From positions 62,001-126,000 of the forward strand of contig JASANH010000812.1 in NCBI GenBank assembly GCA_030248295.1: a DNA stretch of 64,000 nt. The letters run 5' to 3'. Origin of the DNA: Mesodorylaimus sp. YZB2_4 (Eukaryota; Nematoda; Enoplea; Dorylaimida; Dorylaimidae). The notes beneath the pieces are model-generated. The model made no database searches and was not told the DNA's origin. It was given only the letters and a program-made list of their open reading frames with translations. The position numbers and the translations under genes were made by a program. Shown in pieces: positions 1,850 to 25,760 of the stretch. Numbering within the stretch: the stretch's first letter is position 1; each line of letters begins with the position of its first letter.

Positions 1850-1998
1850 CTGATAACGTGTTAAAAGTCAAAAAGCAGAGTTCGACCCTGAGGACAGCAG
1901 ATTTTAGTGTCCTTCATTTGTGTTGATCGATCAACAGATTAGATAGTTCCAAATATGGTAAAGGCAGTCTCTGGGGGATGAGATTGTGCCCAGAATAC

Positions 1999-2594
1999 CT
2001 TTGATTTCAATTTATTCTTAACATGTAATAAATTTGTTTCAGTAAGTTTCCCCACCCAGTAATAACAAAATAATTCAAGTACATGAGACGTCGAAAATCG
2101 CTGAAAGCCCAGATTTCCTGGCGAATAGTCAGCGAGCGTGTGAAAACGTGCGTGGGAAGATGAGAATATGACCTTGGCACCCATGGAATCTCGACTATTT
2201 CATGCCGTTTACATTTTTGCCAATAGAGCAATCCTTAGTCCAAGTTCTTATTATTCATCTGGCTCCTATTACCATTTCAAAAGATATGTTCAAGCTACAA
2301 TAGAAACGGACTTAATAATTTTTCAATCGAAATATTGAAGCTGCCATTTACTGGGTCTCGCCGGCTGCGCTTGTATGGCGCGGACTCTTTGGCACAGAGT
2401 TTTGTAATCGAAATAAAGGTGTGTGAAAGTTGGATGCGCCTGTTTATGCATGAGTCTTTGAACCAATATGCGAGTATTTATTTAAGGTGTCGGCGATGGG
2501 TCCCCAGAGCACTCCTGCCTTTGGTCGTCAGCGGTCGAGTTCACTGTCGTGCCCGCCTCCATTTTGTCCCATCGATTTGTGGCTTTGAGTAAGT
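1999..2594 (+). promoter_or_regulatory. Tectonin promoter/first-exon cassette, copy A
   Basis: About 600 bp that recur upstream of every tectonin copy here (B at 6120-6950, C split at 13430-13870 and 15918-16270, D split at 16860-17119 and 17964-18154). It contains an A/T box TATTTATTTAAGG at 2475-2487, then a conserved stretch ending in a splice donor (GTAAGT at 2589). I infer a core promoter plus a non-coding first exon that splices to the acceptor at 4029-4030 just before tectonin gene 1. The alternative is a dispersed repeat that merely travels with the genes. Confidence 0.55.
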
Positions 2595-2667
2595 TTTCGA
2601 TTTCTACAGTAGGCATCCTATTTTATCAGTGGCAACAGCCGACTGGCACCCGCATTGCTTGAGCCAG

Positions 2668-2945
2668 CAGCTCTGACTGGGAGGCCGCAGTTCTGTTCTG
2701 GCTGAAGACGGGTTTAGTAAACCTATTCGCAGAGTGGGATCCAGTCTTTGAGCCCGATTTAGTGAGTATCATCCTGGGACGCTGGTGCTGGCACAGGATG
2801 CCCTCGTGTGGAGACGCACTGAGGTAAGCTGCCGTGAGAGCTTGTCACCTCACGGGCTCGCTTATCATATCAGGACTGCTTGCAAAACGGATGGCAAGTC
2901 CCGTGGGGCAACCACGGCGGTACGGGGCTAACCCACAAAAATTAA
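2668..2945 (+). repeat. Dispersed repeat, probable second SINE family
   Basis: About 280 bp. Begins CTGACTGGGAGG and closes with a segment containing CGCTTATCATATCAGGACTG and GGCAAGTCCCGTGG. Matching segments recur, interrupted, at about 38160-39110. In that copy the head carries a box A-like GGCTAAGCTGATTAAGG and a box B-like GGTTCTATTCC, which suggests a tRNA-derived SINE. It lies in the putative 5'-UTR intron of tectonin gene 1. The rest of that intron to 4030 shows nothing I recognise. Confidence 0.5.
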
Positions 2946-4044
2946 AAAAACAGCCCACTGGCATAGCTGATGATAAGGTTGCGGTAATGTTGGGTTTGCA
3001 TAACTAATTTCAGTTACATAATATGCAAAATACAATGTAAAATCATCTCTGCCCGATATTGTCGCGTGGCATCACAGAACTTGAAAATTCACAAGTATTT
3101 GAGCATAGTGTAGTTAAGCTTCCCCTCGGTTTGATTGCTCCCTGCTATCTACTGTGGTTTTTTCTGATAATATGGACAGAATTAGAGGGTTCAAAACTAG
3201 TAAGCAAAAAGAGGCAGAAGACGGGAAACATAATCTATACGAGTCCGTATCCCCCTCGTTTAGTCCCCCTCTAGTTAACCACACTCTCCCGTTTGGTTCA
3301 AAATCCCTGTGCCCCTCAAATAGTCTACCCGGGGCGGTGCTGGGCGCAGATATATTACGAGAGTAACGCAAAAATGAGAGATGCATTTTTATTTTCTCGC
3401 ATATCCAGACCCTCAGGGCCATTTGAAATGATAATTTTTATGGATTATTACTTGAAAGACTATCAAAAGTCAACCTGGACTTTTGGTCACTCTTACTTAA
3501 GACATATTACCAATTATCTATGGTCCTCCCATGAATATGCAGTTGATAGTTCCATGAAAAATCTGAAGTCCCAGCGTTTTTGATAGCGTTGAGTATTTAC
3601 AGACTTGGAGAGATATACAGTATGTGAGATACAGTTCAGGTACTGATGTTAACTGCAGAAATTCTGAAGCATACCAGACCTCTTGTAGTGACTTATGAAA
3701 CATCAACCGGACTGGATGACTGCCACTTGTGCCTGTCGATGGGCGCACTGACAGCTCGAGAGCACATGTTACACTGTCGTAAGAGGCACTGAAAGGAAAG
3801 TGGAAAGTGCCAAGCAGATCCATACTTCCCAACCAGCACTAATTCCCACTGTGGTTCCTTGTGGATTCCTAGCATAGATCCGAGGGGCGTCTAAGCAGAG
3901 GATACACGGAACCACAAGCAAACCACGATGGGATTCTCAGAATTAGGAATTTCGGGCAAGGCAAAACAATGACATTTTTTCTGATTTCTCAGACTTCCCC
4001 TTTTTTGACTAAAACCAATGACGATTTCAGGTGTTCGACTAGAA

Positions 4045-4845
4045 ATGCTGCTTCTAAAATTTCTCATCTTTTCTTGCACCATCAGCATTATTGGTGCGGG
4101 CGGGGGTGGGCTAATGATTCAACCGAAAGCCAAAATGAGTTCGCAGGAAGAGGCGGAGAGAATCGCTGCTTGGAATCCGAGATACAAAACGTATGTGGGT
4201 CCTGGCGGCGCATTTAAAGTATCAGCCAAGGGCAATGAATTGTGGGCCATCGACGCCTATAATTCTTTATGGCAATGGGTCGATAACGATTGGGTTCATT
4301 ACCCGGGCGTTGCAAACAGTATTTCCGTTGCCTCCGATGGTTACATTTGGGTGTCTGATTCAAATCACCTGATTTGGAGAAGGGATGAAAAGGCGAACTG
4401 GGTTCAGATAACGGGTCGAGTACATCAAATCAGCGCCGCGTCCAAGGATTACGCAGCGGGTATCGCAGCGGACCAAGTGTGGGTCTATCGCAACGGTACG
4501 TGGAGCAACCCTGGCGCTGGCCAACTGTATGTGGCTTTGGGTGAAAGCGATGAGATGTGGTTGATCAGAACTGACCAATCAATTTGGCGGAAAGAGGGCA
4601 ACGGTTGGGCTAAAAAACCAGGCTCTGGTGTCATGATCGATGTGCAAGGCCCGAATCGCGTGGCCCTGTTAAACGGCACTGGTGACGTGTTTTTGTGGAA
4701 AGGCAGCGATTGGGAATGGGTCATGGGAGGTGTCAAAAGTGTCAGCGTCACCATAGATTGCGTCTATTATGTCACTGGCAAATTCGGGGAGCGGAAAAAC
4801 GGTGCAGTTAAAAGGTGGTGCCCGTATGATTGGAGGAATAATTGA
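4045..4845 (+). CDS. Secreted tectonin-domain protein 1
   Basis: Predicted secreted beta-propeller lectin-like protein of 266 aa. Residues 1-18 form a hydrophobic signal peptide. The rest is built of tectonin-type repeats of about 35 residues with recurring Trp, W-x-x-x-PG and ELWAI/GYIWV strands, ending in a Cys-containing tail (C239 and C259, probably a disulfide) with terminal WCPYDWRNN. Tectonin propellers in other animals bind sugars or lipopolysaccharide in innate defence or egg coats; that role is inference here. I start at 4045, not at the in-frame ATG at 4018, because a clear acceptor (GATTTCAG, ending 4030) lies between them and the paralogues start with the same MLLLKFL/MPLLKYL signal. 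It differs from gene 2 by about 20 extra residues (QPKAKMSSQEEAERI) after the signal. A polyadenylation signal AATAAA is at 4990-4995. Confidence 0.85.
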   Translation: MLLLKFLIFSCTISIIGAGGGGLMIQPKAKMSSQEEAERIAAWNPRYKTYVGPGGAFKVSAKGNELWAIDAYNSLWQWVDNDWVHYPGVANSISVASDGYIWVSDSNHLIWRRDEKANWVQITGRVHQISAASKDYAAGIAADQVWVYRNGTWSNPGAGQLYVALGESDEMWLIRTDQSIWRKEGNGWAKKPGSGVMIDVQGPNRVALLNGTGDVFLWKGSDWEWVMGGVKSVSVTIDCVYYVTGKFGERKNGAVKRWCPYDWRNN

Positions 4846-4849
4846 AGGA

Positions 4850-6119
4850 AAAAAGGCGAAATAAAAGCAAGGAAGGCTTGAAAAGTTTTAAACTGTGACA
4901 TCGAATTTCGAAGGCGAGCATAAAATGATAGTATTTATACAATATACAGAACATGCAATTAAAGTGAAGAATACAATATAATGGGGAAAAATAAAGTTTT
5001 TTTCCGCAAACTTTGAACGAGTTTTTTGCATTTTTCAATCAAGTGTCATGCGTCTTTGTTTTTTTTTAAAGAACTCATTAGTCATTACACTTATCTGCTA
5101 ACAGCTGCGGCATGCTGATCAGATAGAGAGGCTGTGTTTACGCGCCCTCACTTGTCAGGGGTGACGAAACGCAGAAGTGATGACACAAAATGTCGAACAA
5201 GAAAACCTCTTACGTCCTACTTTGAGAAAAATTTTGCGCGACAAACAAATTAACGCAAACTTTTTAGTAGATTATATGTACAGTATGTGTAGGGGACTTT
5301 AAGGATTTTGCGACGCTGATAGAAGCTACGGGTAAATTCCTGTCCTTTTTTGGGACTAGTTTCGGTGGACCGACTCATGAACGTTAGGAAGTAAAATCTT
5401 ATGGACGCGCGAAGCTCAAAGCGCGCGAATTAATGCTCTTGACCTGCTAATTGTACGATTCGTGCATCAATAGCTGCATACTCAGCAGCTACTGTATTCG
5501 GTTGGCAGTTTCATCAGTACTAAAGGCACAATCCGCCGCAAATCGGATCCACAGTCACGAAGTATAATTGGACTGTGATGGCTCTCGAATGCTTCAAGGA
5601 CAAAAATTCTTGGGGATGCGATCAGAAGACGTGTAAGGGAAGAGCAGGCGACAGTTGCTAAATCATGCGAGCCACTTTCACCGATTATCACTAATAATTA
5701 TTGGTTTTTCTGTACGTGTGCTCTTCTTTGCGTCCCCGAGCATTTTTATCCTAGAGATATAGAAAATTTCCTAAAAAAATATTAGTGCCAGTTATGGTTG
5801 AGCTTACTGTATGCTTCTTTCCGACTGAGCAAAAATCAGAAGTTGGATAATGCTGCTTCAAGCTAATGGCTGACAAAAGATGCAACAAGCCAAAGAAAAG
5901 GCCCCATCTGCACATTGGGAGAGTTTCTCCTATTGTTCACAAGATGGCCCATTATCTGGGCACTAGACTAGACGTCTTAACCCTCCTGACAGTCAATCAG
6001 GTGCTTCTGGGTCCGTGTCACCCGCATTACGGAAGAGAACTCCTATACATACTGTAAATTAAATTTAAGTGAAAGCGAGGTTATTTCAGAATTTTTGTCG
6101 CTATTCAAGCTCCTATGCT
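4850..6119. other. Intergenic, nothing recognised
   Basis: After the 3' end of tectonin gene 1 there is about 1.2 kb with only short unsupported frames and no repeat that I could match elsewhere in the window. Confidence 0.4.
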
Positions 6120-6950
6120 GTGACAAACCTAACTAAACTATAGGCTCGCGATCAGTTGCGAGGCGTCAGCTGCCAGGGCCTAAGTTGGAAGCTGAAGCAC
6201 CTAATTTGTTATGTGTTTGTTAAAAAAAGCTAGTCGTGCACACCACTGCCACTGTCAAGCTAACAGGTTGGAAGCTTGAAAAGCTGGGGTGGGGAGTTCG
6301 GACAGCCTTGTCTGAAAGAGTAACCCCATAGGTGCCTGGGCAAGTGCGAAACTACCTTTGATTTCATTTTATTCGTAATATGTAATAAATTTGTTTCAGT
6401 AACTTTTCCCACCCAGAAATATCAAAATAATTCAAGTACATGAGACGTCGAAAATCGCTGAAAGCCTAGATTTCCTGGCGAATAGTCAGCGAGCGTGTGA
6501 AAACGTGTGTGGGAAGATGAGAATATGACCTTGGCACCCATGGAATCTCGACTATTTCATGCCGTTTACATTTTTGCCAATAGAGCATTCCTTAGTCCAA
6601 ATTCTTATTATTCATCTGGCTCCTATTACCATTTGAAAAGATATGTTTAAGCTACAATGGAAACGGACTTTATAATTTTCAATCGAAATATTGAAGCTGC
6701 CATTTACTGGGTCTCGCCGGCTGCGGTTGTATGGCGCGGATTCTTTGGCACAGAGTTTTGTAATGAAAATGAGTGTGTGTGAAAGTTGGATGCGCCTGTT
6801 TATGCATGAGTCTTTGAACCAATATGCGAGTATTTATTTAAGGTGTCGGCGATGGATCCCCAGAGCACTCCTGTCTTTGGTCGTCAGCAGTCGAGTTCAC
6901 TGTCGTGCCGGCCCCCATTTTGTCCCATCGACTTGAGGCTTTGAGTAAGT
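6120..6950 (+). promoter_or_regulatory. Tectonin promoter/first-exon cassette, copy B
   Basis: Near-identical to cassette A over its last 600 bp, with TATTTATTTAAGG at 6831-6843 and a donor GTAAGT at 6945. The homology with cassette C extends further left, to a segment containing GTCGTGCACACCA and TTGGAAGCTTGAAAAGC near 6230-6285. It lies about 750 bp before tectonin gene 2. Same inferred role as copy A. Confidence 0.55.
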
Positions 6951-7704
6951 TTTTGAGTTCTATAGTAGGACGTTCTCATCAGTGGCAACAGCCCGATGAC
7001 ACATCTCAGTTGGGTCAACCTGGTTATTGTGGTCCATGCAGGAAACCATGTGGACTTCTGTCTGTTGATGATCATTTGGCTTCACGGCACTCGACAAACT
7101 TACGATTAGATCCAATTCAGTATGCTGACGAAGAGATCCTGCTTAGTCATTTTGTTCAGGCTGTCCAAATGCACTTGCGCAATCTTTGATATGCTGCGCA
7201 TCTGGCGTGAAAGACGCAAGCTTTGAGATTTGTATCTGGACTTTAGTCCTCCTCATCTCGGACCACCCGGGTGCACTGATCGCACTTTTCCCCGACCATT
7301 AGCTATTTCGAGCTTAAAACAGACTTTTGCAAAAGAACAGGGTGTTCTGGGTATAAAAGGAAGGTGCCAAGACAAAAAAGCTGAAGGAGGCTGAAGATGA
7401 GTGATGGAATCTGAATCTAAGTGGTCGATAAGATAACATTTCCGGGTCTGTAGATTTCTTGAAGAAACCTGACAAATTCAGTGACTGTTGGTAACTGTCA
7501 CAAAAGACGATGAATGTGGAGGGAGGCTTGAGCACCAATAGTTTACGACACTACAGCCACAGACTCACAATCAGAGTAAATAGACAAGGCACAACTTATT
7601 ATTTGACCTAGAAGTTTAAAATGATTTTGTAAATTGTTTCTTCGTGTATACTTAAAAAAGCAAACAAACCGATATTTTTAGTTTTTAAGGTTCATTCAGC
7701 AAAA

Positions 7705-8445
7705 ATGCCGCTGCTGAAATATCTCGTTTTTTATACAAGCATCATAAGCATAAGTGGCTACGATGCAAGATGGAGATCGTATCCTGGTCCTGGGGGTGCA
7801 ATGCAAGTGGCAGCCAAGGGCAATGAATTGTGGGCCATCAACGCCTACAATGTTCTTTGGCGTTATGAGAGTGACGAGAATTGGGAGCAAGTCCCAGGCG
7901 TTTCAATCAGTGTTGGCGCAAGCCCTGATGGTTACACTTGGGTGATCAATTCAAATCAACTGATTATAAGAAAGGATGACAAGTTAAAGTGGATACAAAT
8001 ACCTGGTTACTTAGTGCAAGTTAGTGCAGCGTCGAAGGATGTGGCTGCGGGTGTCAACGCGCAGGGCATGGTTTGTGTCCATCGCAACGGAACGTGGAGC
8101 TACCCTGGCACGACTACTGACGGAGTTTGGGTGTCAATTGGCCAAAGCGATGAGATTTGGTTGGTCAAGAGAGATCAAACCATTTGGCGATGGGAAGGTG
8201 ACGCGTGGGCTAAAAAACCAGGCTCTGGTGTCGCGATCGATGTGCAAGGCCCGAATCGTATGGCCCTGTTGAACGGCACTGGAGACGTGTTTCTGTGGAA
8301 AAGCTACAAATGGGAATGGGTCATGGGTGGCGTAAAAAGTGTCAGCGTCACCAGCGATTGCGTCTACTATATCGTTGGGAAAATTGGTGAAAAAAAAGAT
8401 GGCCTGATTAAGAGATGGTGCCCGTATGATTGGAGGAATAATTGA
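7705..8445 (+). CDS. Secreted tectonin-domain protein 2
   Basis: Predicted secreted tectonin-repeat protein of 246 aa, paralogous to gene 1. The signal peptide spans roughly residues 1-18. The repeat core begins at RWRSYPGPGG without the spacer seen in gene 1. The C-terminal half is nearly the same as gene 1 (KKPGSGV, IDVQGPNR, NGTGDVFLWK) and ends in the same WCPYDWRNN, with the Cys pair at 219 and 239. The start is fixed by an acceptor ATTCAG six bases upstream of the ATG. AATAAA lies at 8561-8566. It sits downstream of cassette B in the same orientation, so it is a tandem duplicate with its own copy of the upstream module. Ligand unknown. Confidence 0.85.
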   Translation: MPLLKYLVFYTSIISISGYDARWRSYPGPGGAMQVAAKGNELWAINAYNVLWRYESDENWEQVPGVSISVGASPDGYTWVINSNQLIIRKDDKLKWIQIPGYLVQVSAASKDVAAGVNAQGMVCVHRNGTWSYPGTTTDGVWVSIGQSDEIWLVKRDQTIWRWEGDAWAKKPGSGVAIDVQGPNRMALLNGTGDVFLWKSYKWEWVMGGVKSVSVTSDCVYYIVGKIGEKKDGLIKRWCPYDWRNN

Positions 8446-8569
8446 AGGAGCAAAGGCGAAGTGAAACGATGCGAAAATATGAATTTTTTTATTGTGACAC
8501 CGAATCACAAAGACGCGTATAAAATATACAGTATATGCAATGAAAGGGAACAATATGCTAAATAAAAAA

Positions 8570-10014
8570 AATTTTCGTTCGGAAAGACACATATAGCTCC
8601 TGCTATATACATATAGTCCTGCTCTTACTTTTTGTACTTCCAGCTCTGCGAGTGGAAGCACAAAAAGTAAGAGCAGGACCGACCAACCGCTCTGGTAGGA
8701 AGGAAGCACAAGAGAAAGTGGAGCCTTGAGAAACCAAATAAAGACTATACGATGGGGTCGATGACTGGAACGCACAATAAGTCGGCAGGAAGAGCTCTCA
8801 GCAAATACAGATATAAAGTACATGTGAAACTGGATCATGTAGGGCAAAGGTTCAGGTATGTTTGGCTGCGCGCAAAATGAAGGGACAGATGACTTGATAG
8901 CTGGTGGGTCTGGATGGGCGACCTCGCAGTGGCATGAACGTGAAAAGAACGAGCACGTTTCTTGTTTTTTCTTGCTACAAAAGCATAAAAGAGACTGAGT
9001 TCAGATTTGTCAGACCAAGATTTATAAAAGTGGAAGATTCAAAGCAACAATGGATTGACAACAGACCGACGGGTTGCATCTTGGATCTTGGATGCGTGGC
9101 CCACTCGTGGTCTGTCCTCCACGCTCACTATTGGTGCGCGGGCGCATGTTCGACTCGCGGCCAGATATATCATTCCTTGTGTAATGGGTTCCACCCTCCC
9201 TGAGTGCGCTTGCGTTTGGCGAAGCGGAAAAAAAGAAACAGGGCCATAAAAGTAGACTTTACTGTAGACACGACAATAGATCTCGCACACACACTTTATG
9301 AATGCGGAATAGTTTTTGTAAATGACGTCGGTTTTTCTTTTTGACGTTGACTTTGACGCGAACCCCAGAAAATTTTCAACTTCGACATTGACTCTGACAG
9401 GGGGTTCAAAATTTTTTTGACTCTGACTTTGACTTTGACAGGGCAGAAAAGCTCGATCTTGACATCGACTCAAGATTGACCTTTTTAAAAAAATTTTCTC
9501 AAAGGCTCTGTGGACAAGCCGCCCTGTCCCACCAGGTGTCTCACATGTCGCCCGCCTCTTCACAGCCTTGGCAAAATGCTGGGGGCGGAGGTAAGCGATG
9601 GCCGAGCCTGCCTGGCATGTCAAAATACAGAATGCCCAAGAGCCGCAATATCCAGGCCGAACAATCTTTAGCTGCACATGCGCGCAGTGTAAAGCCGAGA
9701 CAACGCGACTACAACACTCCGTGCGAGAATGCAACTTATTCTGTTAGCCGTGAACTCAAGTGCTTCTTATCAGCTAACTAAAGAACTAGTGGAAATCAGG
9801 TAGCAAAAATACAGTCAGTAACATATCTTGATTTACAAGGAGCGAAGTCCAAAGGTTGACAAAGTACCATTGCTTAAGATTGTTCAAAAGATTTAAAAGT
9901 TCTGAAATACAGTATTAATTTTTCAAGAAGAGAACTCGTTGAAAGACGGCGGTTCAAATGTTTAGAGCGACCAGTAGACACCTTCAAAGAGAGCCTTTCC
10001 CAGAGCAGTAGTTA
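8570..10014. repeat. Non-coding stretch with simple repeats
   Basis: Contains an inverted pair of the 22-base type CAAAAAGTAAGAGCAGGAC around 8615-8680, and a run of TTGAC/TTTGAC-type short repeats at about 9330-9475 that resembles the array at 22838-23100. A B-box-like GTTCGACTCGCGGCCAG at about 9149 recurs in reverse at about 15614-15632, probably SINE remnants. Long frames here have no family resemblance. Confidence 0.4.
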
Positions 10015-11375
10015 AACCGACGATGTTCTATTTCAAGTAACTGATATGTACAAGCCAGGTGAACACACAATTAACCAATGCTGACACTTGATAACAGCCG
10101 CCACTCAGGTACAGGTCATGGGCGCGCAATTCAAGTACAAGAGCTGAGGTTCCAGGTGCTTCTATACTGGCAGATACACCACAGTCCAAATACACTGTAC
10201 AGAGAGCATGGGCACAAGTGACCAGATACCTATGCGCCTCAGAGTCGGTATGTACACGCTGACACAGTATGTATCTCACTGTCAGTTTCCCACACTTCAC
10301 CATTGAACATATACCCAACCCCCCAAGCCCTAATTTTCTCTCATGACCCCCCTCACTTTAGTTCTGTTTAATCAATGCAGCAGCATCGAGTACGCTTACT
10401 TGAGACACACGATAGTCATTTTTTTGCAATAATTTCTCACTTTTCCCCTCATTCTCATCTGAAACTCCCTGAATTCTTCTCTCATTAATTTGCTAAACCA
10501 TAAATAGAAAAAGAAATTGAAGGATCTGCTTGAACATTCGGCTGAATCACAAATAAACCCGCCCACGTTCAGTGCAAACCACCCTGTCAGACAATTCTGA
10601 CAAGCCATTCGATAGATGTTAGTGCTGGCCATGATACAGTAGCCCAGCTGGTTCAATAAAAATAAAAGATCCAAAATCAGAATCAGAGAAATAGTCGAGT
10701 TGACCTCGCCCTTCTTTTGCTGCTGCTGGATGAGGATTGGTTTCATGGACCGTGCATCTGTCGACAAGTGACTCATGGACTTGGGATTCGGTCTACGCAT
10801 TACGTTTGCAGCTCCGACGATCGAATCCAAAGGTGATACAGGCTTGGAAATTTTGATCACTGGCTTAGGAGTAACAGTCGTTTTGCTTTTGGATCGGCGC
10901 AAAATAGTAGATACGATCTATTGTAAAAATACCATAAGCAGGGTGGCCAGACATGGGAATGCCATGTCTGTGACCATGCCCACGTACATGGACACTTGGT
11001 CGAAACGTGCCGGAAACCAGGGCGGTGCCACTCGTCGAACAGCCACGTCTCGAGCAGCGTATCGAACGCGGAATAAGCTGACCAGGGCGATGGCAGTGCC
11101 ACCAATAATGTGCACCTTGCTCCTAAATTGCTTTGAAAAGATTTTGTGAGGCCATCCAAGTGCAACGTAACGTTCTGCAGTCAGTGCCAATGCGCACAGA
11201 TCAGAGGCGAAGGAGCATGAAAATGTGAGTGCGTGGCATAGGACAAAGAACCAAGTGGAGTCATCGCCCCATCTTGACCAGATGTAAGTCAAGCAAAAGA
11301 TTAAATCCAAAATTGATATTAAAAACATGAAGACAAAAAATGATGTCTTTTCTGTGCAAAGTTTTTTCCAAATTG
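10015..11375 (-). pseudogene. Truncated GPCR paralogue (pseudogene)
   Basis: A duplicated copy of the receptor gene at 23555-24637, plus about 370 bp of its 3' flank. Coding homology runs from the stop at 10396 up to 11375, where it ends abruptly at the codons for I-W-K-K-L at the end of TM1. The N-terminus and TM1 are absent. At the TM5/third-loop border an in-frame TAG (10917-10919 region, after MVFLQ) replaces coding codons of the paralogue, in the same frame on both sides. So the copy lacks its start and carries a nonsense codon. The remainder is well conserved (ERY motif, TM6-TM7), so the loss looks recent. Confidence 0.85.
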
Positions 11376-11484
11376 CGCGGAGACATCAAAACTGGCGAGT
11401 GGACTGATCAAGAAGACAAGTCGTTGATGGAAGGCTTGGAGAAATACGGCTTCGGAAAGTGGCGGAAAGCGGAAAGTGGACATT
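11376..11484 (+). pseudogene. Fragment resembling a SANT/Myb DNA-binding domain
   Basis: Starts exactly at the breakpoint of the GPCR pseudogene. The plus strand reads GEWTDQEDKSLMEGLEKYG followed by FGKWRKAE, then a stop. The spacing W-x2-x-ED-x2-L-x6-YG-x-G-x-W is that of the first two helices of a SANT/Myb repeat. Whether it belongs to a host gene fragment or to the neighbouring LINE is unclear; its frame differs from the LINE frame that begins at 11539. Confidence 0.45.
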
Positions 11485-11538
11485 GAGAGCCACGGTACGA
11501 AAGGCGGTGCTGCGAATGGTTGGTGAAACTGGTTTTAT

Positions 11539-13050
11539 ATGACACCAGCAACGTCTTCTCTTCGAATCGGTTTTTCTAATGTTAATGGTATAAAAGGGAA
11601 AATTGATTACATCCATCCAGTAATTATCGAGCAGTCATTTGATATTCTTAGTATTGCTGAAACAAAAATCGACGATTCTGTATCGGATGATTTCCTCTTG
11701 CAAAATTTACGTGATTACAATGTCTATCGGCGGGACAGGAAATCTGGTGGTGGTGGCATTGCGACTTTCATTAAGTCAACGCTTCCAGTTATTCAATTGA
11801 AGTCTGCAAATGATTTAGGGATCGGCCGAGATGATTTGGAAATTCTAGCCCTTCGAATTGGAACTGGTAAAGAGTCAGTTGTTCTGTTGACAGTGTACAT
11901 TCTAAAGCAATGTCCAGCGGCAATTCACGCGCTTTTGCATTATTGTCAACGTGCGTTTAGACACCAATTCGATCGATTGGTCATTGTGGGAGATTTTAAC
12001 GCCGACTTATTACTTCATTCACCTGCCCGAGCAGCAGTTTTTGATCTCATTAGTAGCCTGGACGCCACGCAAACCGTCACTGTGCCCACAAGGAAAAATC
12101 GTACTTTATTGGATCTGGCGATTATTGGGGATGGTCAAAGGCATCGTGAAACAAAAGTATTGTCACCTATTGATTCTTCTGATCACGATGTATTATCGAT
12201 TAGCTTGGGGAATCGACCAAAAGCGAACTTTCCTGATCAACGTCTCGCTTGAAGTATACGACGTGTTGATTGGAAGGAAGTGAATCGTAGGATATCAGCT
12301 GAAGAGAGCCTACACCTGGTCAACTCAGCGTCAGATGTGGATGAAGCTTGTAATCGGCTTATGGACAGGATCACCAAGGTAATCACAGAAATTATTCCAC
12401 GCCGTTCTGTCCAAAGAAGCCAGCAGCATCCGTGGATTGCCTCAGAATTGCTTCGCCTAATTCGTGAGAAGAATCATGCCTACTGGAAATGGAAGAAGTC
12501 AAACGACATCAAAGATTTTGGTTGGTTCAGTCGGCTACGTAGGCAAGTGAAGAAGGATGTTCGTAAAGCGAAACGTCAGTACATTGATCGATTATTCTCG
12601 GAGGCTAAATCGCCTGCTGAATTTTGGGCAGCCTATCGACGTTTTAGTCCAGATGATCGATCAATTCCTCCCTTGATTGACGATTTCAACAAATCGCATT
12701 TTTCATCGGCCGAGAAAGCTACATTGTTGCAGACGTCATTTCAAGGAAATTTCAACCAAACCATGGGCAGCCCATATTCTCCACCTCCTCTTGATAATGG
12801 AGATTATTACGATTGTGACGTCTCATTTAGTTTCGTGCATCGACAACTAGCAACACTCCGTATTCAAAGTGCTCCTGGCATTGATGGACTGTCTGCGCCT
12901 ATTCTCAGAAACATTGCCTCGTCCATTGCTCCAGCTCTTACGGCATCGTGTAACCGCTCGCTAGTTGAGCGAGTTTTCCCGAAAGCATGGAAGGTGGCGA
13001 AGGTAATCCCAATACCGAAACCGGGCGACCGTCATCAAGCTACATCTACA
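11539..13050 (+). mobile_element. LINE fragment: APE endonuclease and start of reverse transcriptase
   Basis: Non-LTR retrotransposon, plus strand. The first open stretch (to 12252) has APE-type endonuclease signatures: SIAETKIDDS, RKSGGGG, VGDFNADLL and the final SDHDVLSI. A TGA at 12250-12252 interrupts an otherwise continuous frame, which resumes with RRVDWKEVN. The second stretch holds the linker (WIASELLRLIREKN, RKAKRQY) and the first reverse-transcriptase block (SAPGIDGLSAPIL, KVIPIPKPGDRH). Homology stops near 13050, so the palm, the YxDD motif and the 3' end are missing. It is inactive. Confidence 0.85.
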
Positions 13051-13429
13051 AGTTCGAAGAGCTCTCAGTTGGTAAAACCCAAATCCGCAGGACAAAGTGC
13101 AAAAAATTCTGACAAAACTTTTTTGTTCCGACAACCCTAATTTTTGCATTTTTGATCAGAATTTCTTCGTCATTCGAAACATTTAATTTTCATCGCCAAA
13201 AAAATATCAATTACCAAAGGCATGAGGCCGCGGCATTTTATTAACGATATATATTATGTATATACCCCACATGAACTGCTACCTTTCTTGGAATCTTGTA
13301 TGCAGCCATTCTATCCCTGGCCCAAAATCTTATAGCCCCTGAAGTAAAAAGTGTGAAATAAAGTAGCACTTCTGGTGGTGAGTGGCCAACTATCAGTGGT
13401 TCCAAGTCAGCATTTTAATCGGAAGAACC

Positions 13430-13870
13430 CTAGCTCGAAGCCCAACCACCTGATTCGTTTTGTGTGAGTTCAAATACGTGAGTCGTGCACACCAGCCGCC
13501 ACTGTCAACCTAGCAGATTGGAAGCTTGAAAAGCGAGTAATGGCGGCAAATAGGCACCACTTTATGTCAAATTTTGTTAGACAGCCTCGCCCTACTTGAC
13601 CCTAAGAGCGACCACATACAGCAGATGTCTAGGCAAACGCAAAAGTATCACGCTTCACATGCTCAATAAATAAGCTTCACAAACTTTTCCAACCCAGCAA
13701 TAACGAAGTTATTCAGGAATGTCTGACATGTCGAAAGTTGCTAAAAGCCTAGATTTCTTGTCGCATAGTCAGAGCGCTTGTGAAAACGTGCGTGGGAACA
13801 TTTGAATATGGTCTTGGCTTTCGCGAAAAATCTTGACATTTCATGCCGTTCATACGTTTTGCCAATAGAG
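13430..13870 (+). promoter_or_regulatory. Tectonin cassette copy C, left part
   Basis: Matches the left and middle of cassette B (GTCGTGCACACCA at about 13485, AACGTGCGTGGGAACA, then TTGCCAATAGAGC at about 13858-13870). Homology breaks here and resumes at about 15918, so about 2.05 kb has been inserted. No tectonin reading frame follows this cassette. Confidence 0.55.
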
Positions 13871-15139
13871 CTTATCAGCAGGCACGGTAGTGCCTGCTTA
13901 GACCAGCCAACCAGACGCCTAATGCTAAAGGACCATTTTCACCGACTAATAACTCGAGAACGATTTGACGAGAATTTTTGATTTTTTGCACACATAGCAG
14001 AATCGGCCGAATCTACAATCGTGCCAATTTTTATCAAAATCCGTCCGGCTATTGTCGAATTCCAGGATAGGCGATTTCTTGTTCAGGGGGGAGAAGACGA
14101 GGAGGAGGAGGAGGAGGATAAACATCAGCCTAGAGCAACAACCAGAGGTCGTACAGGTGTAAATATTAGTTTTTCTGAAAGCTTGCATCTTCAGAATCTG
14201 CCTTTTGGCATTCGTTTTTTGAACGCTTTAGTTTCGAAAAGGTTATTCCAGAAAATAATCACTTTTTTGACTTTTTCAACCCGTCGCTTGTCGAGTACTC
14301 AACAGATTTTGATAAAAATTGACGTGGCAGCGGATCTGACCTATCTTGCAAAGCGTGCGAAAAATAAACTTTTTTGGTGAAATCATTCTTGAGTTATTGA
14401 CTACCGAAAGTAGCTGGCTGTGGTGTTTCTGTTTTTTTCATTTTCGGCGCGCAGCTTAGAAACATCAACTGAACGGGTTGAGGTGCAGCGCTATTGATTG
14501 GCTAGGCTCACTTAGAGCGCTTTCACGAAGATGGGTTTGGTGTACACCAAACCCATCTTCGTAATTTATTACCAGCAAATTCTTTGGTGTATATACACCA
14601 ATAAATTTGCTGGTGATAAATTGAGAATTTGTGAACGAATATAAATGATGTGGAAAGAGATTCCATGGTCAGGACATGTTTCATTAGATGTGGAGGTAAT
14701 ATTGCTGAGGAAAATAGGAGCTAAAAATAACTTATAAAACTTGCGGATCCTAAGTATTCAGTTTCAGCTTCTGATGGAATACTCTGAGGATATAGAACTT
14801 AAGACCACTCGAGCATGAGCTAGTCCTTACGAATTAGAAATCCTTACGAATGAGCTTTATTGTTTTTCATGCCGCCTGTATATCTGAGTACATATGCAAA
14901 AAAATGCGCATTTCATGAGCAGGCACGGGTGAGAGTTTCTGACTATGAAATGGTCGATCGATCTGTAGGCGGTCTTTACGAGTAATTTCATGGGCGCGGG
15001 TTAACGTTCCGCTCTATGTTTCTGTTTTAAGAGGTTTGGAAGAAGGTGTATGACAGTCAAGTCGCTCAATTCTCTCAGTTGTAGGAACAAGTGTTTTGGG
15101 CCAAACTATAGTTTCTAGCAAAAAACGAAAAACGGTTTT
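13871..15139. repeat. Insertion into cassette C, first part
   Basis: Sequence between the two halves of cassette C, not matched to a coding family. It contains an acidic (GAG)n run at about 14096-14119 and two adjacent palindromes at 14525-14620. Confidence 0.45.
14525..14620. repeat. Two back-to-back palindromes
   Basis: 14525-14562 is a perfect 19+19 palindrome centred on GGTGTACACC. 14565-14620 is a second, nearly perfect palindrome of 56 bp centred on GGTGTATATACACC. Both would form strong hairpins and share the GGTGTA core. Confidence 0.85.
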
Positions 15140-15917
15140 ATTATTTCCAAAAAAGTCTGTTATGACAGACTCAAAACTTTTAGGCCAGCCTATGCACACA
15201 GTGGAACCAGGGCTTAGGATGGCTGGTCTACTCGGCCACAAGAAAAAGGGAAAGTGCCCCAACAGGCAGTGCACACACAGCTTGTAATTGCTCGCACACA
15301 TATACTGTATGTATGTATGCATTGATATGTCAGCATCCAAGCCACAAAGCTTGTGTTCGGTGCATGTACTGCTGCTGTTCAGACAGGCTCCCCAAAGGCA
15401 GCTGTGCTGTTCCACACAATTAACCTGCACACTGCATGCTAAAGCTGTAGCGCTGGGAGCAAAGTGATATTGCTTATCGTTACATGCCTAAGCCTCGATG
15501 AACACTGTAAAATCTTTCCCCTTCTTCCAACTTTATGTTCATGCTCATGGTTTATCATATCAGTAATGACACACTCTAGGATAAAAGGGCACATGACACA
15601 AAATGATTTACCTGGCCGCGAGTCGAACACTCCCTAGTAATGATACGAGCAAGCGCTACTACGCATAGCCCGAGAGTTAGACACTCCTAGCCCACTTTGA
15701 GGACCACGAGCACAGGATCGTGTGGCCCTCTACCAGGATCAGTCGTCCTGTTGATATTCATGCAGAAAAAGCAGCTTCTGCTCAGACATTTTTCCTAAAC
15801 CGTGGTTGCGCTTAGCAGAGGCCGAGTAGACCAGCCATTCTAAGCCCTGGTTTCACTCTGTGCATTGGCTGGTCTAAAAGTTTTGAGTCTGTCATAACAG
15901 ACTTTTTTGGAAATAAT
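15140..15917. mobile_element. Inverted-repeat element with about 98-bp arms
   Basis: The left arm 15140-15237 and right arm 15820-15917 are reverse complements over about 98 bp (left arm includes AAGTCTGTTATGACAGACTC and GGATGGCTGGTCTACTCGGC). The inner 580 bp hold no convincing gene; a SINE-like B box lies in reverse near 15614-15632. It is the right-hand part of the insertion that splits cassette C. Likely a non-autonomous DNA element, superfamily unknown. Confidence 0.75.
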
Positions 15918-16270
15918 TCCAAATACTTATTATTCATCTGCCTCCAATTACCATTTCTAGCGATAAAATTCAAGTTACATTAGGAAGACCCTTCATATTT
16001 TTCAGTCGGAATACACACAAAAATTGAAGTTATTATTTGCTGGGTCTCGCCAGTTACGCTTGGATAGCACTGATTCTTTAACACTCAGTTTTGTAATGGA
16101 AATAAAGGTGTGTGAAAGTTTGATGTGCCTGTTTATGCATGCCAATTCGCGAGTACTTATTGGCGTTGTCAGCGATGCATCTCCAGAGCACTCTTGTCTT
16201 TAATCATCAGTGGCACATAGCTCACTATCGTGCAGGCCTTCGTTCGTCTCATACTTGTGGCTTTAGGTGA
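15918..16270 (+). promoter_or_regulatory. Tectonin cassette copy C, right part
   Basis: Resumes with CTTATTATTCATCTG and continues through the region equivalent to the first exon, ending with the donor GTGAGT at 16267 after GGCTTTAG. The A/T box of copies A and B is degraded (TACTTATTGG). Instead of a tectonin exon, a SINE follows about 180 bp later. Confidence 0.5.
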
Positions 16271-16449
16271 GTATCTGACGATAATTTTGGCAGTCATATC
16301 CAATCCATCTCTTCTCCTGGCAGACCTTATGGGGCTGCGATGATGTTGAGTCTGCCTTATTCATGTTTAATTTATCGTTAGACCATGCAAAGATTGTTCA
16401 AACTGATCACTGACCTTCTCATGTGGGATCACAGCACAGAAGAATTTCC

Positions 16450-16636
16450 TCATGTCATCATGTCATGTCATGTCATGTCATACTTTATCCATAGCCAAGC
16501 ACCATAAGGCGCACTCGAGGGCTAAGGAACACTTAATTGACAATCATTTTGTACCGAAGCGGGAGTCGAACCCTCCCCTGTAATTGCGCACCCAGCGTGA
16601 GAGGCAGACGCCTTAACCCGCTAGGCCACGACCTCC
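16450..16636 (-). mobile_element. tRNA-derived SINE, second copy
   Basis: Reverse orientation of the element at 1678-1849. The tail is an expanded CATGT pentamer run at 16450-16480, followed by the shared body (ACTTTATCCATAGCCAAGCA) and the tRNA-like head ending near 16636. Confidence 0.75.
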
Positions 16637-16859
16637 AGTAATACGGCTCCAGTCGAACCCACGCCTGGCAGGCGAAGGAGGGAAAAAGTGGCAAAAACTC
16701 CGACTAGAGCAGGCAAGTTTTGCGATTATATCTGTACCTACGGGTAACATCAACTCGAGTGGTCTCCCAGGATCAGTAATTTTCCCCCTCTCACTGCGGC
16801 CCGCCGGGCAGTGTTGGCATCCGGGATATGTAGTCAGGATTTGTTGGAGGCCCGAGTTG

Positions 16860-17119
16860 ATGAGCGTGTGAAAAGGTGTGTGGGAACATGAAAATATGAC
16901 CTTGGCTCCCGAAGAATCTCGGCTATTGCAAGTTGTTCACAATTTTTGCCAATGGTTCAGTCCAAATGTTTATTATCGTTCTTACTCCTGTTACCATTTC
17001 ATAATATATAATCAGATTACAATAGAAAGTGACTTTTAGAATTTTCAACAAAAATATTGAAACTGCTATTTTACTGGGTCTCGCCAGCTGCGCTTGTAAG
17101 GCGTTGATTCTTTGGCACA
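16860..17119 (+). promoter_or_regulatory. Tectonin cassette copy D, left part
   Basis: Matches cassettes A and B from GAGCGTGTGAAAA through CTGGGTCTCGCCAGCTGCGC up to TTTGGCACA, where a LINE begins. The cassette resumes at 17964. It belongs to the tectonin pseudogene at 18382. Confidence 0.6.
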
Positions 17120-17963
17120 TCATCATCATCATCATATTTACTTCATTGGACAAACGCTAAACCGCACTCCATGTCCAAGAAACACTTTAAAAGAGTTATA
17201 CAGAAAACATAAATTACAATGAGTATCGAAAAGTTAAACGAGAATAAGAGTAAGACGCCCCAAGCGTTCCCCAACGTACAATATTCCATAATTCAATACT
17301 AGAAAAGATAAAGCTTTGTTTATAAGCCCCGAAATAAGGTCTGGACACAATAAGATGATGTGGTTCACATATCTGACGACTATCACCGTGATGAAAGTTA
17401 TGAAACTGGCACATTTTCAGTCCTTTCTTTCTATCATACAGTGAAGACCACCCAGCTTGTTTCAGCCCGTCTTTAAAAGTTATGCGAGAATCGTTCAAAT
17501 ATAATCTCAACGCATAAAGCTGAGCTCGTTCTAACTCTCGAATATCCTTATCCAGCACAGGATCCCAGCATATGGCACCATATTCAAGCACAGAACGGAC
17601 ACAGGCATTATACAGTATACGGTAACCAAAAAACTCGGATCTATGTGTCTTCCCAGTTTGCGTCTAATTGCACCAATCATATTCGTTGCCTTTCGCACAG
17701 TCAAAGAGACATTTGACTGTATTTCATATCTGAGGAAAACAAAATACCCAAATATTTTACCTCTTCAAAGAAATCCAGTTTGTGTCCATTCACCGTTAAG
17801 TCCGGGTGAGGCGGCAGTCTGTTGTGGCCGTATCGGAAAATTATCGCTTGCGATTTCGAAACATTGAAATCCAGTCCTGCTGATCGAACCCAGGTCGAGA
17901 TAAAATCGATAATTGGGTGAATAATGGTTTCGAGCTCCTCCATTTTCCGAATAGGCACGAACA
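17120..17963 (-). mobile_element. 5'-truncated LINE inserted in cassette D
   Basis: Minus-strand LINE. The 3' end lies at 17120 with a short (ATG)n tail in its own orientation. Translations in shifting frames show the end of a reverse transcriptase (GLDFNVSKSQAIIF, VKYLGILFSSDMKYS) and the typical C-terminal block (LEYGAICWDPVLDKDIRELE, RAQLYALRLYL). The 6-bp sequence GGCACA occurs at both junctions (17114-17119 and 17964-17969) and only once in the uninterrupted cassettes, so it is a probable target-site duplication. Frameshifts show that it is dead. Confidence 0.85.
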
Positions 17964-18154
17964 GGCACAGAATTTTGCAATGAAAATGAAGGTGTGTGAA
18001 AGTTGGATGAGCCTGATCATGCATGTCAATGTGCGAGTACTTACTGGCCTTGTACGCGATGCGTCTCCAAAGCACTCTTGTCTGGTCAACAGTGGCACAT
18101 AATTTACTGTCGTGAAGGCCTCCATTCGTCTCATACTTTCGGCTTTAGGTGAGT
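17964..18154 (+). promoter_or_regulatory. Tectonin cassette copy D, right part
   Basis: Continues the cassette after the LINE, through the exon-like stretch, to GGCTTTAG followed by donor GTGAGT at 18149. The distance from here to the pseudogene start is only about 230 bp. Confidence 0.55.
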
Positions 18155-18381
18155 ATCCGACCATTGTTTCGGCAGTCGTCTCCAAGGCATCTCTTCTCCT
18201 AACAGACCTTTCGGGGCTGCGGTGATGTTGGGTCAGCCTGATATATGTTCAACTTTGAGCATGCAAAACGATGCAAACTGATCTCTGACCTTCCCGTGTG
18301 GGATCACAGCACATTAGAATTCACGAACACTGCACTACATCATGCACTACCAAAGACACCTTCCAGGCTTGCTTCCTGCCA

Positions 18382-19190
18382 ATGCTGCTAATGAAGTTTC
18401 TCGTCTTTTCTCTAACCATCAGCATAACTGCAGTTGACGGGGGTGGGCTAATGATTCAACCAAAAGCCGAAACACATTCACAGGAAGAGGCGGAAAGAAC
18501 TGCTGCTTGGAGTTCGAGATACAAAGCCTATTGTGACCGTGGCGGCGCCTTCAATGTATCAGCCTAGGGAAACGAGCTATGGACCATCGATGCCAATAGT
18601 TCTTTTGGCAATGGGTCTATAACACTTGGGTTCTACCTGGGCTATGCAAACAGTATTTTTGTTGGCTCCGATGGTTCCGTTCGGCTGACTGATTCAAATC
18701 ACCTGATTTGGAGAAAAGATGATAAGGAACGGCCCGAAGAAAGGATTCATTTTGGAAAAAGGATGGGAAGTTGAACTGGGTTCAGATACTTGGGCGATTG
18801 AAAAAAATCGACGCGGGCTCCAAGGATATCGTTGCAGGCAATAACGCGCAGGGGTGCTTGTGTGTATGTACAATAGTTCGTGGACCTGCCCTACGATTGG
18901 TGGAGGCTGGCTGTCTTTTGGCCAAAGCGATGACACGTGGTTGGTCAAGTCCGATCAAACAGTCTGGCGATGGGAAGGTGACGGTCTCGCTCGAAAACCA
19001 GGCTCTGGAGTCATGATCGATGTGCAAGGCCTGAATCGTGTGGCCCTGTTGAACGCCGCTGGCGGCGTGTTATTGTGGAGAAGCTACAAATGGAAATGGG
19101 TCATGGGAGGTGTCATAAGCGTCAGCATCACAAGCGACTGCGTCTTTCACGTCGCTGGCAAAATCGGTGAAAAAAAGATGGCCTGATTTA
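18382..19190 (+). pseudogene. Tectonin pseudogene (copy 3)
   Basis: Third tandem copy. The first 61 codons (signal peptide, spacer with SQEEAERTAAW, then the first repeat) are open. A lysine codon of gene 1 is then TAG (18565-18567). Further frameshifts follow, with homology switching frames around 18730-18850. Near the end one A is missing from the poly-A run of GEKK compared with gene 2. The conserved C-terminal WCPYDWRNN is absent; homology stops at about 19190. The extra N-terminal spacer groups it with gene 1. Its promoter cassette is also split by a LINE. Confidence 0.9.
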
Positions 19191-19887: not shown

Positions 19888-21237
19888 TTATTTCCTTGCT
19901 ATTGCTAATTTTACAAATCCATATCCTCCCACCATAATCACTGAAATTAAGCATATTATTGCATAGTGATAAACATTCGACTGGCACACTTTTTCCTCAT
20001 CCAGTTTCCTCCTTGATTGGTTTTCTAACAAATCGACTAAAATCCTTGTAAACAAGTGTCTTTTTTCCACTTTGACCACATCGTATATCAAATTCCTCAG
20101 TCCATCCTTTCTCCATCTCCATTTCACTTTTTTATTCAATTCATAACGGCATGAATTTATAGAGTTGCCATGGTCGAGGTTGTGCCTTATCATTTTATAT
20201 TTGGCAATGTCAGGGGGATATCTGATAATCTCGAGCTCGTGCAAGTGCACTCTCTGAGCCATATCGTCGTCCTCTCCACCCCATCCCCAATAATCGTTAC
20301 TATACCCGTTCAATGTCTTGAATTGACCAGTGGTCAAGGCAGTAACACCACCAAAAATTGTATCATAGGGTAATTGATATTGGAATTTATCCACAGCCAC
20401 GGACATGTGTCTTGGTTGAGTTGGACACGTGTACAAATTATGATCATTTTCTGGTAATAAATCAACATCGTGGAAAATTATGCAATGCCATTGGTCCAAT
20501 TTCATTGCTTCCATAAATCCGATGTTTAGTAATTTTCCGCGATTAAATGTTTGATTAGTTATTTGTTCAATGACAAATATGGAATAGTGTAGTTGCTGTT
20601 TTTGTAGGAAAGGGTGCATGTGACGAAGGAAAATGCGCAAGTGAGTGTCCCGGTGGCGATATGGAATAATTATGGCCACTTTGTGTCGTGGTTTACAATC
20701 GATCGGTGTCCAATATCCACCTGGATAAAGGGTGGGGAAACGAGATTCCAGGTCTGGATAGGATGGACAAAAGACAGGTACTTCGATTGGACCGATCAAA
20801 CCTGGCGGCATGATTGGACATACTGGCAGTTTAGAAAATTCGGAAGAATTATCTTTAAAAAATTTGCCATCAGGATTTGTGGCGGGAAATTCAAAATTTG
20901 ATTTTGAAAGAGCAATTTTAGAATCATTTTCGTTTTTCGAATTAAAAATGTCTAGCGCGGGAGTTTGAAATTTTTGTTCTAAGTCACGGATTTTTAAAGG
21001 TTGACTTTTATTTATTAGAGACCACGAATGTTGAAATTGGGAAATACTGTCCTTTACTTTAATGAAATCTGATTTGATTCCATTCCAAGCGTAAATATGT
21101 GCAAAATTTAAAACGTGTATGCGATTGTGATAAACTCTAACACCGACTAAAAATTGAAGAAAGACCAAGGACGCAAGAAAGATTATGAATAATTTAAATC
21201 TGGTAAAGTTAACTGATCGATATAAGAATTCAGTCAT
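19888..21237 (-). CDS. Beta-1,4-galactosyltransferase family protein (GT7)
   Basis: Golgi type II glycosyltransferase of 449 aa in a single exon. It would transfer Gal or GalNAc from a UDP-sugar to terminal GlcNAc or Glc. N-terminal transmembrane anchor at residues 14-33, stem to about 138, catalytic domain after PVCP. Family signatures are present: IPYRHRDTHL (191-200), FNRGKLLNIG (231-240), HDVDLLPEN with the metal-binding DVD at 257-259, WGWGGEDDD (317-325), and metal-binding M349 and H352 in MIRH. Unlike the usual family end, it continues about 45 residues past the catalytic domain and closes with a hydrophobic segment (about 424-445) and a basic tail. Acceptor and donor specificity cannot be read from the sequence. 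The start is the only upstream ATG that gives a clean anchor. Confidence 0.92.
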   Translation of the reverse strand: MTEFLYRSVNFTRFKLFIIFLASLVFLQFLVGVRVYHNRIHVLNFAHIYAWNGIKSDFIKVKDSISQFQHSWSLINKSQPLKIRDLEQKFQTPALDIFNSKNENDSKIALSKSNFEFPATNPDGKFFKDNSSEFSKLPVCPIMPPGLIGPIEVPVFCPSYPDLESRFPTLYPGGYWTPIDCKPRHKVAIIIPYRHRDTHLRIFLRHMHPFLQKQQLHYSIFVIEQITNQTFNRGKLLNIGFMEAMKLDQWHCIIFHDVDLLPENDHNLYTCPTQPRHMSVAVDKFQYQLPYDTIFGGVTALTTGQFKTLNGYSNDYWGWGGEDDDMAQRVHLHELEIIRYPPDIAKYKMIRHNLDHGNSINSCRYELNKKVKWRWRKDGLRNLIYDVVKVEKRHLFTRILVDLLENQSRRKLDEEKVCQSNVYHYAIICLISVIMVGGYGFVKLAIARK

Positions 21238-21239
21238 TG

Positions 21240-22132
21240 CGTCATTCAGTGATAAGAAAAATAACGTCGCGGATTACATGACAAACTGTTAGCAGTAGAA
21301 AATTTTGGTTTCTAATGCATTGTTTTTGGTGTCGGTGATAAGCTGATAAGAAAGAAATTCAAAAAGCTGTGAATGATAACAATACACTGTAGATCTGCAA
21401 ATCACTCCGGTTTGCTGATAAGCCACCAGAAGCTAATAAGAAATCAAAAAGTGATGAGCCACGAGGCATTGACGGTGATGATTCAAAAAAGTTTCGTTAG
21501 CCGCATCTGTCTGAAGAGGACGAATGCATTGAGAATATACTTTGAGTATGGAAGGCCCATAAATGGCAGATGAGAGACAAAAAATTTGACGAACTGGGGA
21601 GATAATAATTGTGTTTACCTTGCCTCCATATAAGACCAGCAGGGCTCTGTTTGTTAACTTCTTCTATCCAGTTCATCGAGAAAATCAATGATTTAGGCAG
21701 CCTAGACAATCTATTGTCTCGAAGTAGTGCCATGGAAAAGACGAGGGTTTAGCTACGTTTGTCGCCTTGACAAGATGACTAGCGAGTCGAACAAGCCTGG
21801 CTAACTGTTGACATGGGACTGCGCGCGGAGTGTGTGCGCTCCCATTTGCTGTCATCCAGCGACTAGTGGGCAGGAAGGGCCTGCTAGAATTACTGACCAT
21901 GGCGAGGTAAAAAGGGCTAAGCAAACATGTCGGGCGCTAATGAGTAGGGGCTTGTTTATGTAAGGCGGGGCACTGTGACAGGCTGACAAGGCTTCTTATG
22001 ACAATGCAATTCGTCAAAGGCCACTTTCAGCTCATCCGATATGATTCGCATATTTGGACGGCATAAACTGGCAGCCTCCTTGTCGTCCTTAATTTCTTGT
22101 TAGTAGCGCTACGAACAGTTTGTTAGACAGCG
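21240..22132. other. Intergenic, nothing recognised
   Basis: About 0.9 kb upstream of the galactosyltransferase with no supported gene. A few GATAAG motifs lie close to its start (21250-21450). Confidence 0.35.
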
Positions 22133-24637: not shown

Positions 24638-24639
24638 GA

Positions 24640-25760
24640 GTGATAAGGACGCGGACTGATATGATAAGGGATATAGATATCGGGTTGGTGATAACAGATG
24701 TGGGGATTTTGTGACAGAATATAGGTGGATTGGTGAGATTGGTGATAAGAGCAGATCTGAACTAGTGATAAGGTGCTGGCACAGGATGAATGGAAAATGG
24801 AATGGGATCAGAGAAACCAATAATGAATATTGGCTGTAACAGCGATAAGGTGATGAGGGTACAAATATGCCCCAGGTCGTTATACGGACTGATATGACAG
24901 AGGATATGGGTATCGAGGTGGTGATAATAGACGCGGGGATTTTATGACAGGATATAGGTGGATTTGTGGGATTGGTGATAAGAGCAGATCTGAACTGAAA
25001 ATCCTGACAAAGGATTATAAGAAAATGTGATGGAATTTCGGAAACCAATAAGTTCTGGCTGTAAGTGATGAGGTGATACAGAGTATAAATATGCGTCAGG
25101 TCTAGTGATATGGATATCAGCTTGGTGATAACGGATACGTCGATGATATGGTAGGAAATAGGTGGCTTCGGGGGATTGGTGACAAGAGCAGATTTGAACT
25201 AGTGATAGGTCGAAGTACTGACAAAGGATGGATGGAAAATGAGATAGGACTGAACAAAATGATAATAAATTCTGGCTGTAATAGTGACAAGGTGGGTGAT
25301 AAGATGCTCAAATATGGACCAGGATCTGGTGATGAATGATACCATAGGAATATGATACAGATATTCGTGAGTTGGAGTTTATAGTGATAACAACTGATAT
25401 AAATGACAATTGATAAGATGATAAAAGCTTCAGGAAATGGACGAGCGTGTGATAAGAGATATCTGGTGATAAGGTAATAGTTTCCAGAGTACTTGTGAGG
25501 GACTGAGGGGATTATGTGGTTATAGAAAGAGGATGATATTTGTCAGTAATCAGGATAGATCAGGCTGGATGATAAGGCTATGATAACGTACAGAAACGAT
25601 ATGATATGGCAAAAATGCGAGGCAGCGTTTTCAGCCAAATAAGTGATACTGGTGATAGTGGAAAGTTGATACTGGTTTGGTGATACGATGTGATAAAAAT
25701 CAATGATAAAGAGTACTCTTAATACTGCAAGGACGGTTAGCTGATTAGGATTCACTATTG
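24640..25760. repeat. TGATAA-rich degenerate tandem repeat upstream of the GPCR
   Basis: Three degenerate units of about 225 bp (roughly 24640-24878, 24879-25101, 25102-25329), each with a core like GGTGATAAGAGCAGATCTGA and a closing ATATG-rich segment with CAGG. A further 430 bp of TGATAA-rich sequence follows. By eye I count about nine TGATAA in 24640-25330 and nine more in 25380-25710. This is the 5' flank of the receptor, so it may be a regulatory array of GATA-type sites, or only a satellite. Confidence 0.7.

Follow-up and report, generated by a model that had tools for sequence, protein, structure and literature searches.

Tandem tectonin genes in the nematode Mesodorylaimus sp. YZB2_4 appear to combine a near-identical promoter with old, different proteins. 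The genes lie in a 64,000-nucleotide stretch (hereafter the window; positions 62001-126000 of contig C32, JASANH010000812.1) of a 145-Mb genome of 1067 contigs, where one upstream module, here called a cassette, is present four times (A, B, C and D) within 17 kb. The cluster probably arose by tandem duplication of a whole gene, after which the promoter and exon 1 of A and B were homogenised through non-allelic homologous recombination, with gene conversion as its simplest form. According to this history, a tectonin gene with an upstream spliced non-coding exon 1 would have been duplicated whole to give at least A, B, C and D, and ~600-650 bp (promoter, exon 1 and intron start) would later have been made alike between A and B, leaving these two living genes with a near-identical promoter above old, different proteins.

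Each cassette comprises an upstream region, a putative core promoter, a putative non-coding exon 1 and, as delimited in A, ~60 nucleotides (nt) of intron. Cassettes A (1996..2648, + strand) and B (6353..7001, +), the ends of both being approximate, are intact. Cassette C is interrupted at 13871/15918 (parts 13653-13871 and 15918-16290, +; 13432..13871 with its upstream flank and 15918..16446 with its intron stretch), and D at 17119/17964 (parts 16862..17119 and 17964-18170, +; the first ~135 nt of the module are missing, and the second part spans 17964..18366 when a short putative intron up to the acceptor is included). A tectonin gene stands downstream of A, B and D in the same orientation and none follows C, as an earlier note on this DNA had described. 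The coding exon of gene A (4045..4845, +) encodes 266 amino acids with a hydrophobic N-terminus followed by a Tectonin domain (PF19193, E 6.7e-15, 55.6 bits), and that of gene B (7705..8445, +) encodes 246 amino acids with the same domain (E 2e-17, 63.8 bits); both frames are open and both scores exceed the Pfam cut-off of 30. The third copy, tectonin pseudogene D (18382..19188, +), is interrupted by an in-frame TAG (18565) and by frameshifts, carries an additional 44-nt insert near 18730 and lacks a 3' end, and its fragment 18845-19183 matched no Pfam family.

Divergence between units A and B

Cassettes A and B differ at 40/647 sites (93.8% identity over 1996-2640), while the remaining five cassette pairs differ at 23-25%. 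By part, the A-B differences amount to 22/473 in the upstream region, 1/40 in the core, 6/79 in exon 1 and 7/56 in the intron start. The coding exons have diverged far more: over 242 codons, synonymous divergence (dS) is 0.63 and nonsynonymous divergence (dN) 0.26 (dN/dS ~0.41), and 84/242 third codon positions differ (Fisher p 1e-24 against the cassette). The intron start taken alone lies below the synonymous level (p 3e-5). Chance similarity of the two cassettes is excluded by ten consecutive 60-nt windows of A (1996-2595), which score 50-58 against B when the maximum after shuffling (each window shuffled 12 times and scored against B) is 18.

The similarity has sharp limits, falling to background at 1996 and past ~2650. 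Among 27 windows outside the common segment (1756-1995 and 2656-4035) no score exceeded 15, and three beat their own shuffles by 1 point. Divergence far under that of nearby silent sites, together with sharp ends, is as expected of a conversion tract, and the differences along 1996-2640 (39/645 columns) show no clear departure from a uniform spread (p 0.08).

The main alternative invokes no exchange at all: purifying selection would have kept the promoter and exon 1 of A and B alike while those of the dead C and D drifted. The diverged cassettes do belong to dead units with an altered TATA-like site, and the cassette tree was built without an outgroup and is unrooted, which leaves room for slow rates in A and B. 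Selection on promoter and exon also predicts a rise in A-B difference in the intron start, and such a rise is seen (7/56 plus 5 gap columns, versus 29/592 before it; p 0.03). Set against these points, selection would have to slow ~590 bp of non-coding DNA to ~1/10 of the synonymous rate, beside a protein with dN/dS of ~0.41. The upstream region, moreover, is conserved no less than exon 1 (22/473 and 6/79), and the affinity between A and D along the intron and the first coding part, described below, is left unexplained. On balance we consider selection without exchange an unlikely explanation, though one to be taken seriously.

Conflicting groupings along the unit

When cassette and coding part were compared separately, as the earlier note had proposed, their histories differed. 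Site patterns among A, B and D (A=B / A=D / B=D), which for three sequences reflect branch lengths as much as topology, are 92/10/11 in the cassette, where A and B are nearest (unrooted), 39/74/13 in the first part of the coding exon and 46/26/50 in the rest of it; the best coding break falls near 4451 and was reached in 0/300 permutations. Protein trees of A, B and D with five outside tectonins as outgroups group A with D in the first coding part (support 99/98) and reject both A+B (p 0.0115) and B+D (p 0.0106), while in the last coding part the best tree has B+D (94/89) and no topology is rejected (p 0.08). A 24-residue insert is common to A and D and was not seen in B or in the five outgroups, in a region where the alignment is loose. 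Beyond a dispersed repeat, the A intron matches those of C (62%, E 2e-6) and D (68%, E 4e-11); the corresponding comparisons of the B intron with C and D gave E 0.42 and 0.18. Unit A is, on these comparisons, apparently B-like to ~2648 and D-like onward to ~4450. The coding exons look mosaic as well, and the tree of the unrooted cassette likely conflicts with that of the coding part. The four copies, the conflict among segments and the inserts are shown by the DNA; recombination is the cause that we infer.

Unequal crossing over is one form that this recombination could have taken. Unit A would then be a chimera of a 5' part from B and a D-like 3' part, joined by a crossover in the intron. The switch of partner does fall in the intron, and a single crossover would yield both the B-like promoter and the D-like intron and first coding part. 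A lacks, however, the B-like flank (6183-6284) that C retains, so the crossover needs a second break at ~1996 or a later loss there. We treat this as a possible but somewhat doubtful variant, already counted within the recombination favoured here.

Several observations weigh against homogenisation by recombination. Besides the raised difference in the intron start, the unrooted cassette tree, the contribution of branch length to the site patterns and the unrejected topologies of the last coding part, a dispersed repeat in A lies at the 3' end of the common segment and may hide its true end. The changes private to each copy (11 in A only, 10 in B only) favour neither direction of copying. Pseudogene D sits on a long branch, and the B intron may simply be too diverged to be aligned.

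Extent of the duplicated unit

Homology among the units extends beyond the cassette on both sides. The upstream flank of B (6183..6284, +) aligns with 13432-13534 of C over 103 columns (81% identical); no counterpart was seen ahead of A. C and D have the start of the intron in common over 178 columns (78%), and A and B the 3' untranslated region. With homology across flank, intron and 3' untranslated region, the duplicated unit was a complete gene, from the upstream flank through promoter, exon 1, intron and coding exon to the 3' untranslated region, and not a separate cassette. The earlier note had taken the unit to be promoter, non-coding exon and coding exon. A tandem duplication holding all three stands, in a unit that is larger than proposed. 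Likewise, cassette and coding exon do lie within one tandem unit, as it had held, though they do not have one history throughout, their groupings differing by segment.

A DNA search of the whole genome with cassette A returned six matches, which are all six pieces of A-D in the window, and the 3' part of C returned five, every one inside the window; this search omits very common words and gives minimum numbers of matches. Run against the window and 21 fetched loci (other tectonins or their flanks), a profile built from the four cassettes gave no match below E 0.19 besides A-D. Both searches bear out the four module copies (A, B, split C and split D), and the genome-wide check for further cassettes, for which the earlier note had named hundreds of copies elsewhere as the contrary outcome, matched only A-D. 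It is very improbable that the cassette is a mobile or dispersed element that landed ahead of tectonin genes. Such an origin would suit its four occurrences and the presence of C without a gene; it sits badly with the restriction of all matches in the 145-Mb genome to this cluster, with the intron that C and D have in common beyond the cassette and with the flank that B and C have in common ahead of it. The module was also rejected as a known RNA gene (no Rfam match reached the gathering score in window positions 1-22000) and as a general feature of tectonin genes, since no profile match other than A-D in the window and the 21 loci had an E-value under 0.19, the remaining outside matches being covered by the whole-genome DNA search only. 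A search for transfer RNA genes in the window found none.

Promoter, first exon and intron

A TATA-like sequence is read at 2475..2487 (+) in cassette A and at 6831-6843 (+) in B, ~100 nt before the donor in both, and marks the putative core promoter; it is changed in C and D. The splice donor is retained at homologous positions in all four cassettes, as GTAAGT at 2589 (A) and 6945 (B) and as GTGAGT at 16267 (C) and 18149 (D). All three coding copies have an acceptor-like AG ahead of the ATG, at 14 nt in A, 15 (or 5) in B and 15 in D, with a CAG ending at 4030 in gene A and at 18366 (18366/18367) in D. In B, the acceptor homologous by ATG distance to those of A and D is probably AAG|G at 7690, with 7700 as a second candidate. 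The final ATG ahead of the donor in cassette A lies at 2496, and the ATG and donor positions fit a non-coding first exon of ~80 nt.

The putative intron of A accordingly spans 2589..4030 (+; donor GTAAGT at 2589, acceptor CAG ending 4030) and that of B 6945..7689 (+; with the acceptor at 7690 by position, or at 7700). Intron A contains the dispersed repeat (~2649-2951), followed by a stretch (2958-3092) homologous to the intron of C and D. Searched against the genome, intron B matched only itself, and its similarity to the C/D intron, and to the A intron past 2649, is not significant. The earlier note had ended the conserved part at the donor, which is indeed found in all four cassettes; A-B similarity nevertheless continues ~60 nt further into the intron, where it is weaker. 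Its acceptors just before the ATG of the intact genes hold for A and B, with 7690 more likely than its 7700 in B, and D keeps an acceptor too.

Decay of units C and D

Units C and D are dead, C being split and without a coding exon and D being split with a stop and frameshifts. The inserts, the missing coding exon of C and the lesions of D agree with the later loss that the earlier note had suggested for these copies. C died through loss of its coding exon and later received a young mobile element, and D died through a retrotransposon fragment, a stop and frameshifts. The element splitting C (13872..15917, 2046 bp) has 11 other near full-length copies, at 97-99% identity, among the 40 of 1175 candidates scored, with 218 matches counted; given copies this similar, its insertion is probably recent. 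Its right end forms a 98-nt arm, of which an inverted copy lies inside the element (15140-15237), and a short hairpin is present close to the left end. The fragment splitting D (17120..17963, - strand) is flanked by GGCACA on both sides and is presumably of the non-long terminal repeat (non-LTR) retrotransposon type; seven other near full-length matches, at 84-87%, were found among the 40 of 99 candidates scored.

Homology between C and D ends at 16446, next to a repeat resembling a short interspersed nuclear element (SINE; 16465-16633, - strand). Between the end of C and the start of D lie this SINE-like repeat and ~220 nt without match to the units. A single deletion running from the C intron into the D cassette would explain the losses of both, and the coding exon of C was perhaps lost by a deletion that also removed the 5' end of cassette D.

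The SINE-like repeat at 16465-16633 is the inverted copy of one at 1680-1847, upstream of cassette A, which has tRNA-like promoter boxes (by eye) and is mostly 85-89% identical to its other copies. Also upstream of cassette A lies a dispersed, partly self-complementary repeat (1531-1662; 92-95% to other copies), and a broken retrotransposon with an endonuclease domain (Exo_endo_phos, E 5.7e-10) occupies 11527-13140 (+) between B and C.

The wider tectonin family

The cluster belongs to a larger family. Protein A had 30 matches in the genome at E <=0.01, of which 25 fell on other contigs and five on C32, where they correspond to A, B and three pieces of D. Searching the genome with the Pfam Tectonin model yielded eight matches, two on C32 (A and B), two each on C303 and C15 and one each on C257 and C153; the same search of 14 control genomes gave none. 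Further tectonin genes were seen on contigs C303 and C482 (loci L039-L041 and L043), several of them clustered on C303 and some with TATAAAA near the ATG.

Among seven outside genes with a placed N-terminus, three have TATAAAA and one TTATTTAAG within ~80 nt of the ATG, and two have an acceptor-like AG ~20-30 nt ahead of it (all by eye). The upstream spliced promoter may therefore be peculiar to this cluster. It is conceivable, if rather improbable, that the cluster ancestor captured a new promoter and a spliced non-coding exon 1 that the other tectonins of this genome do not have, and that repeated conversion has since kept the promoter alike across copies even as the lectin proteins grew apart and their coding segments were reshuffled. 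A control region would then be in concerted evolution over a diversifying protein repertoire. The two outside regions with an acceptor-like AG lower the odds of such a capture, as an intron is possible there.

By sequence comparison with solved structures, protein A resembles fungal Tectonin 2 (PDB 5fsb, E 4.8e-10) and a fish-egg lectin (PDB 4ruq, E 0.0027), a distant likeness known here from sequence alone. The N-termini of A, B and D are hydrophobic (read by eye), and the products of A and B are probably lectin-like and secreted. Splicing, secretion, sugar binding and a role in defence are likewise inferred.

Relation to known systems

Birth-and-death evolution is a known mode of tandem gene families, and two intact and two dead tandem copies inside a larger family fit it with no essential difference. 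Our literature search did not find tectonin combined with gene conversion; a Laccaria study reportedly treats tectonin together with gene family expansion. Promoter conversion between paralogues is already known, and the present case adds no new mechanism. The closest parallel is with the delta- and beta-globin genes of mammals, where a tandem paralogue likewise gains its neighbour's 5' flank, exon 1 and intron start (PMC4390247). In that study, the catarrhine tract takes in 71 bp of 5' flank and reaches 123 bp into intron 1, and independent conversions gave the delta genes of galago, cat and microbat their beta-like promoter; conversion is also described as mostly confined to coding regions (PMC4390247). 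Unlike the segment described here, the delta-globin tracts include coding exons, and their direction is known from many species (PMC4390247); in the tectonin cluster exon 1 would be non-coding, the segment takes in ~500 bp upstream and a single genome is involved. The tectonin-domain lectins already known also include the Limulus galactose-binding protein and human hTectonin, and a link between tectonin proteins and innate immunity has been described (PMC2707011).

The cluster offers a compact tandem lectin-like family with seemingly separate promoter and protein histories. It warns that the likeness of paralogue promoters need not mirror gene age, and that no single segment is a safe guide to how old a duplication is.

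Neighbouring features

A second local duplication is suggested by two very similar open frames at 10396-11385 (-) and 23555-25198 (-), which by eye resemble parts of a seven-helix receptor; the frame at 23555-25198 matched no Pfam family at the cut-off. Just downstream of the lectin cluster, a beta-1,4-galactosyltransferase-like gene with the domains Glyco_transf_7N and 7C lies at 19888-21273 (-).

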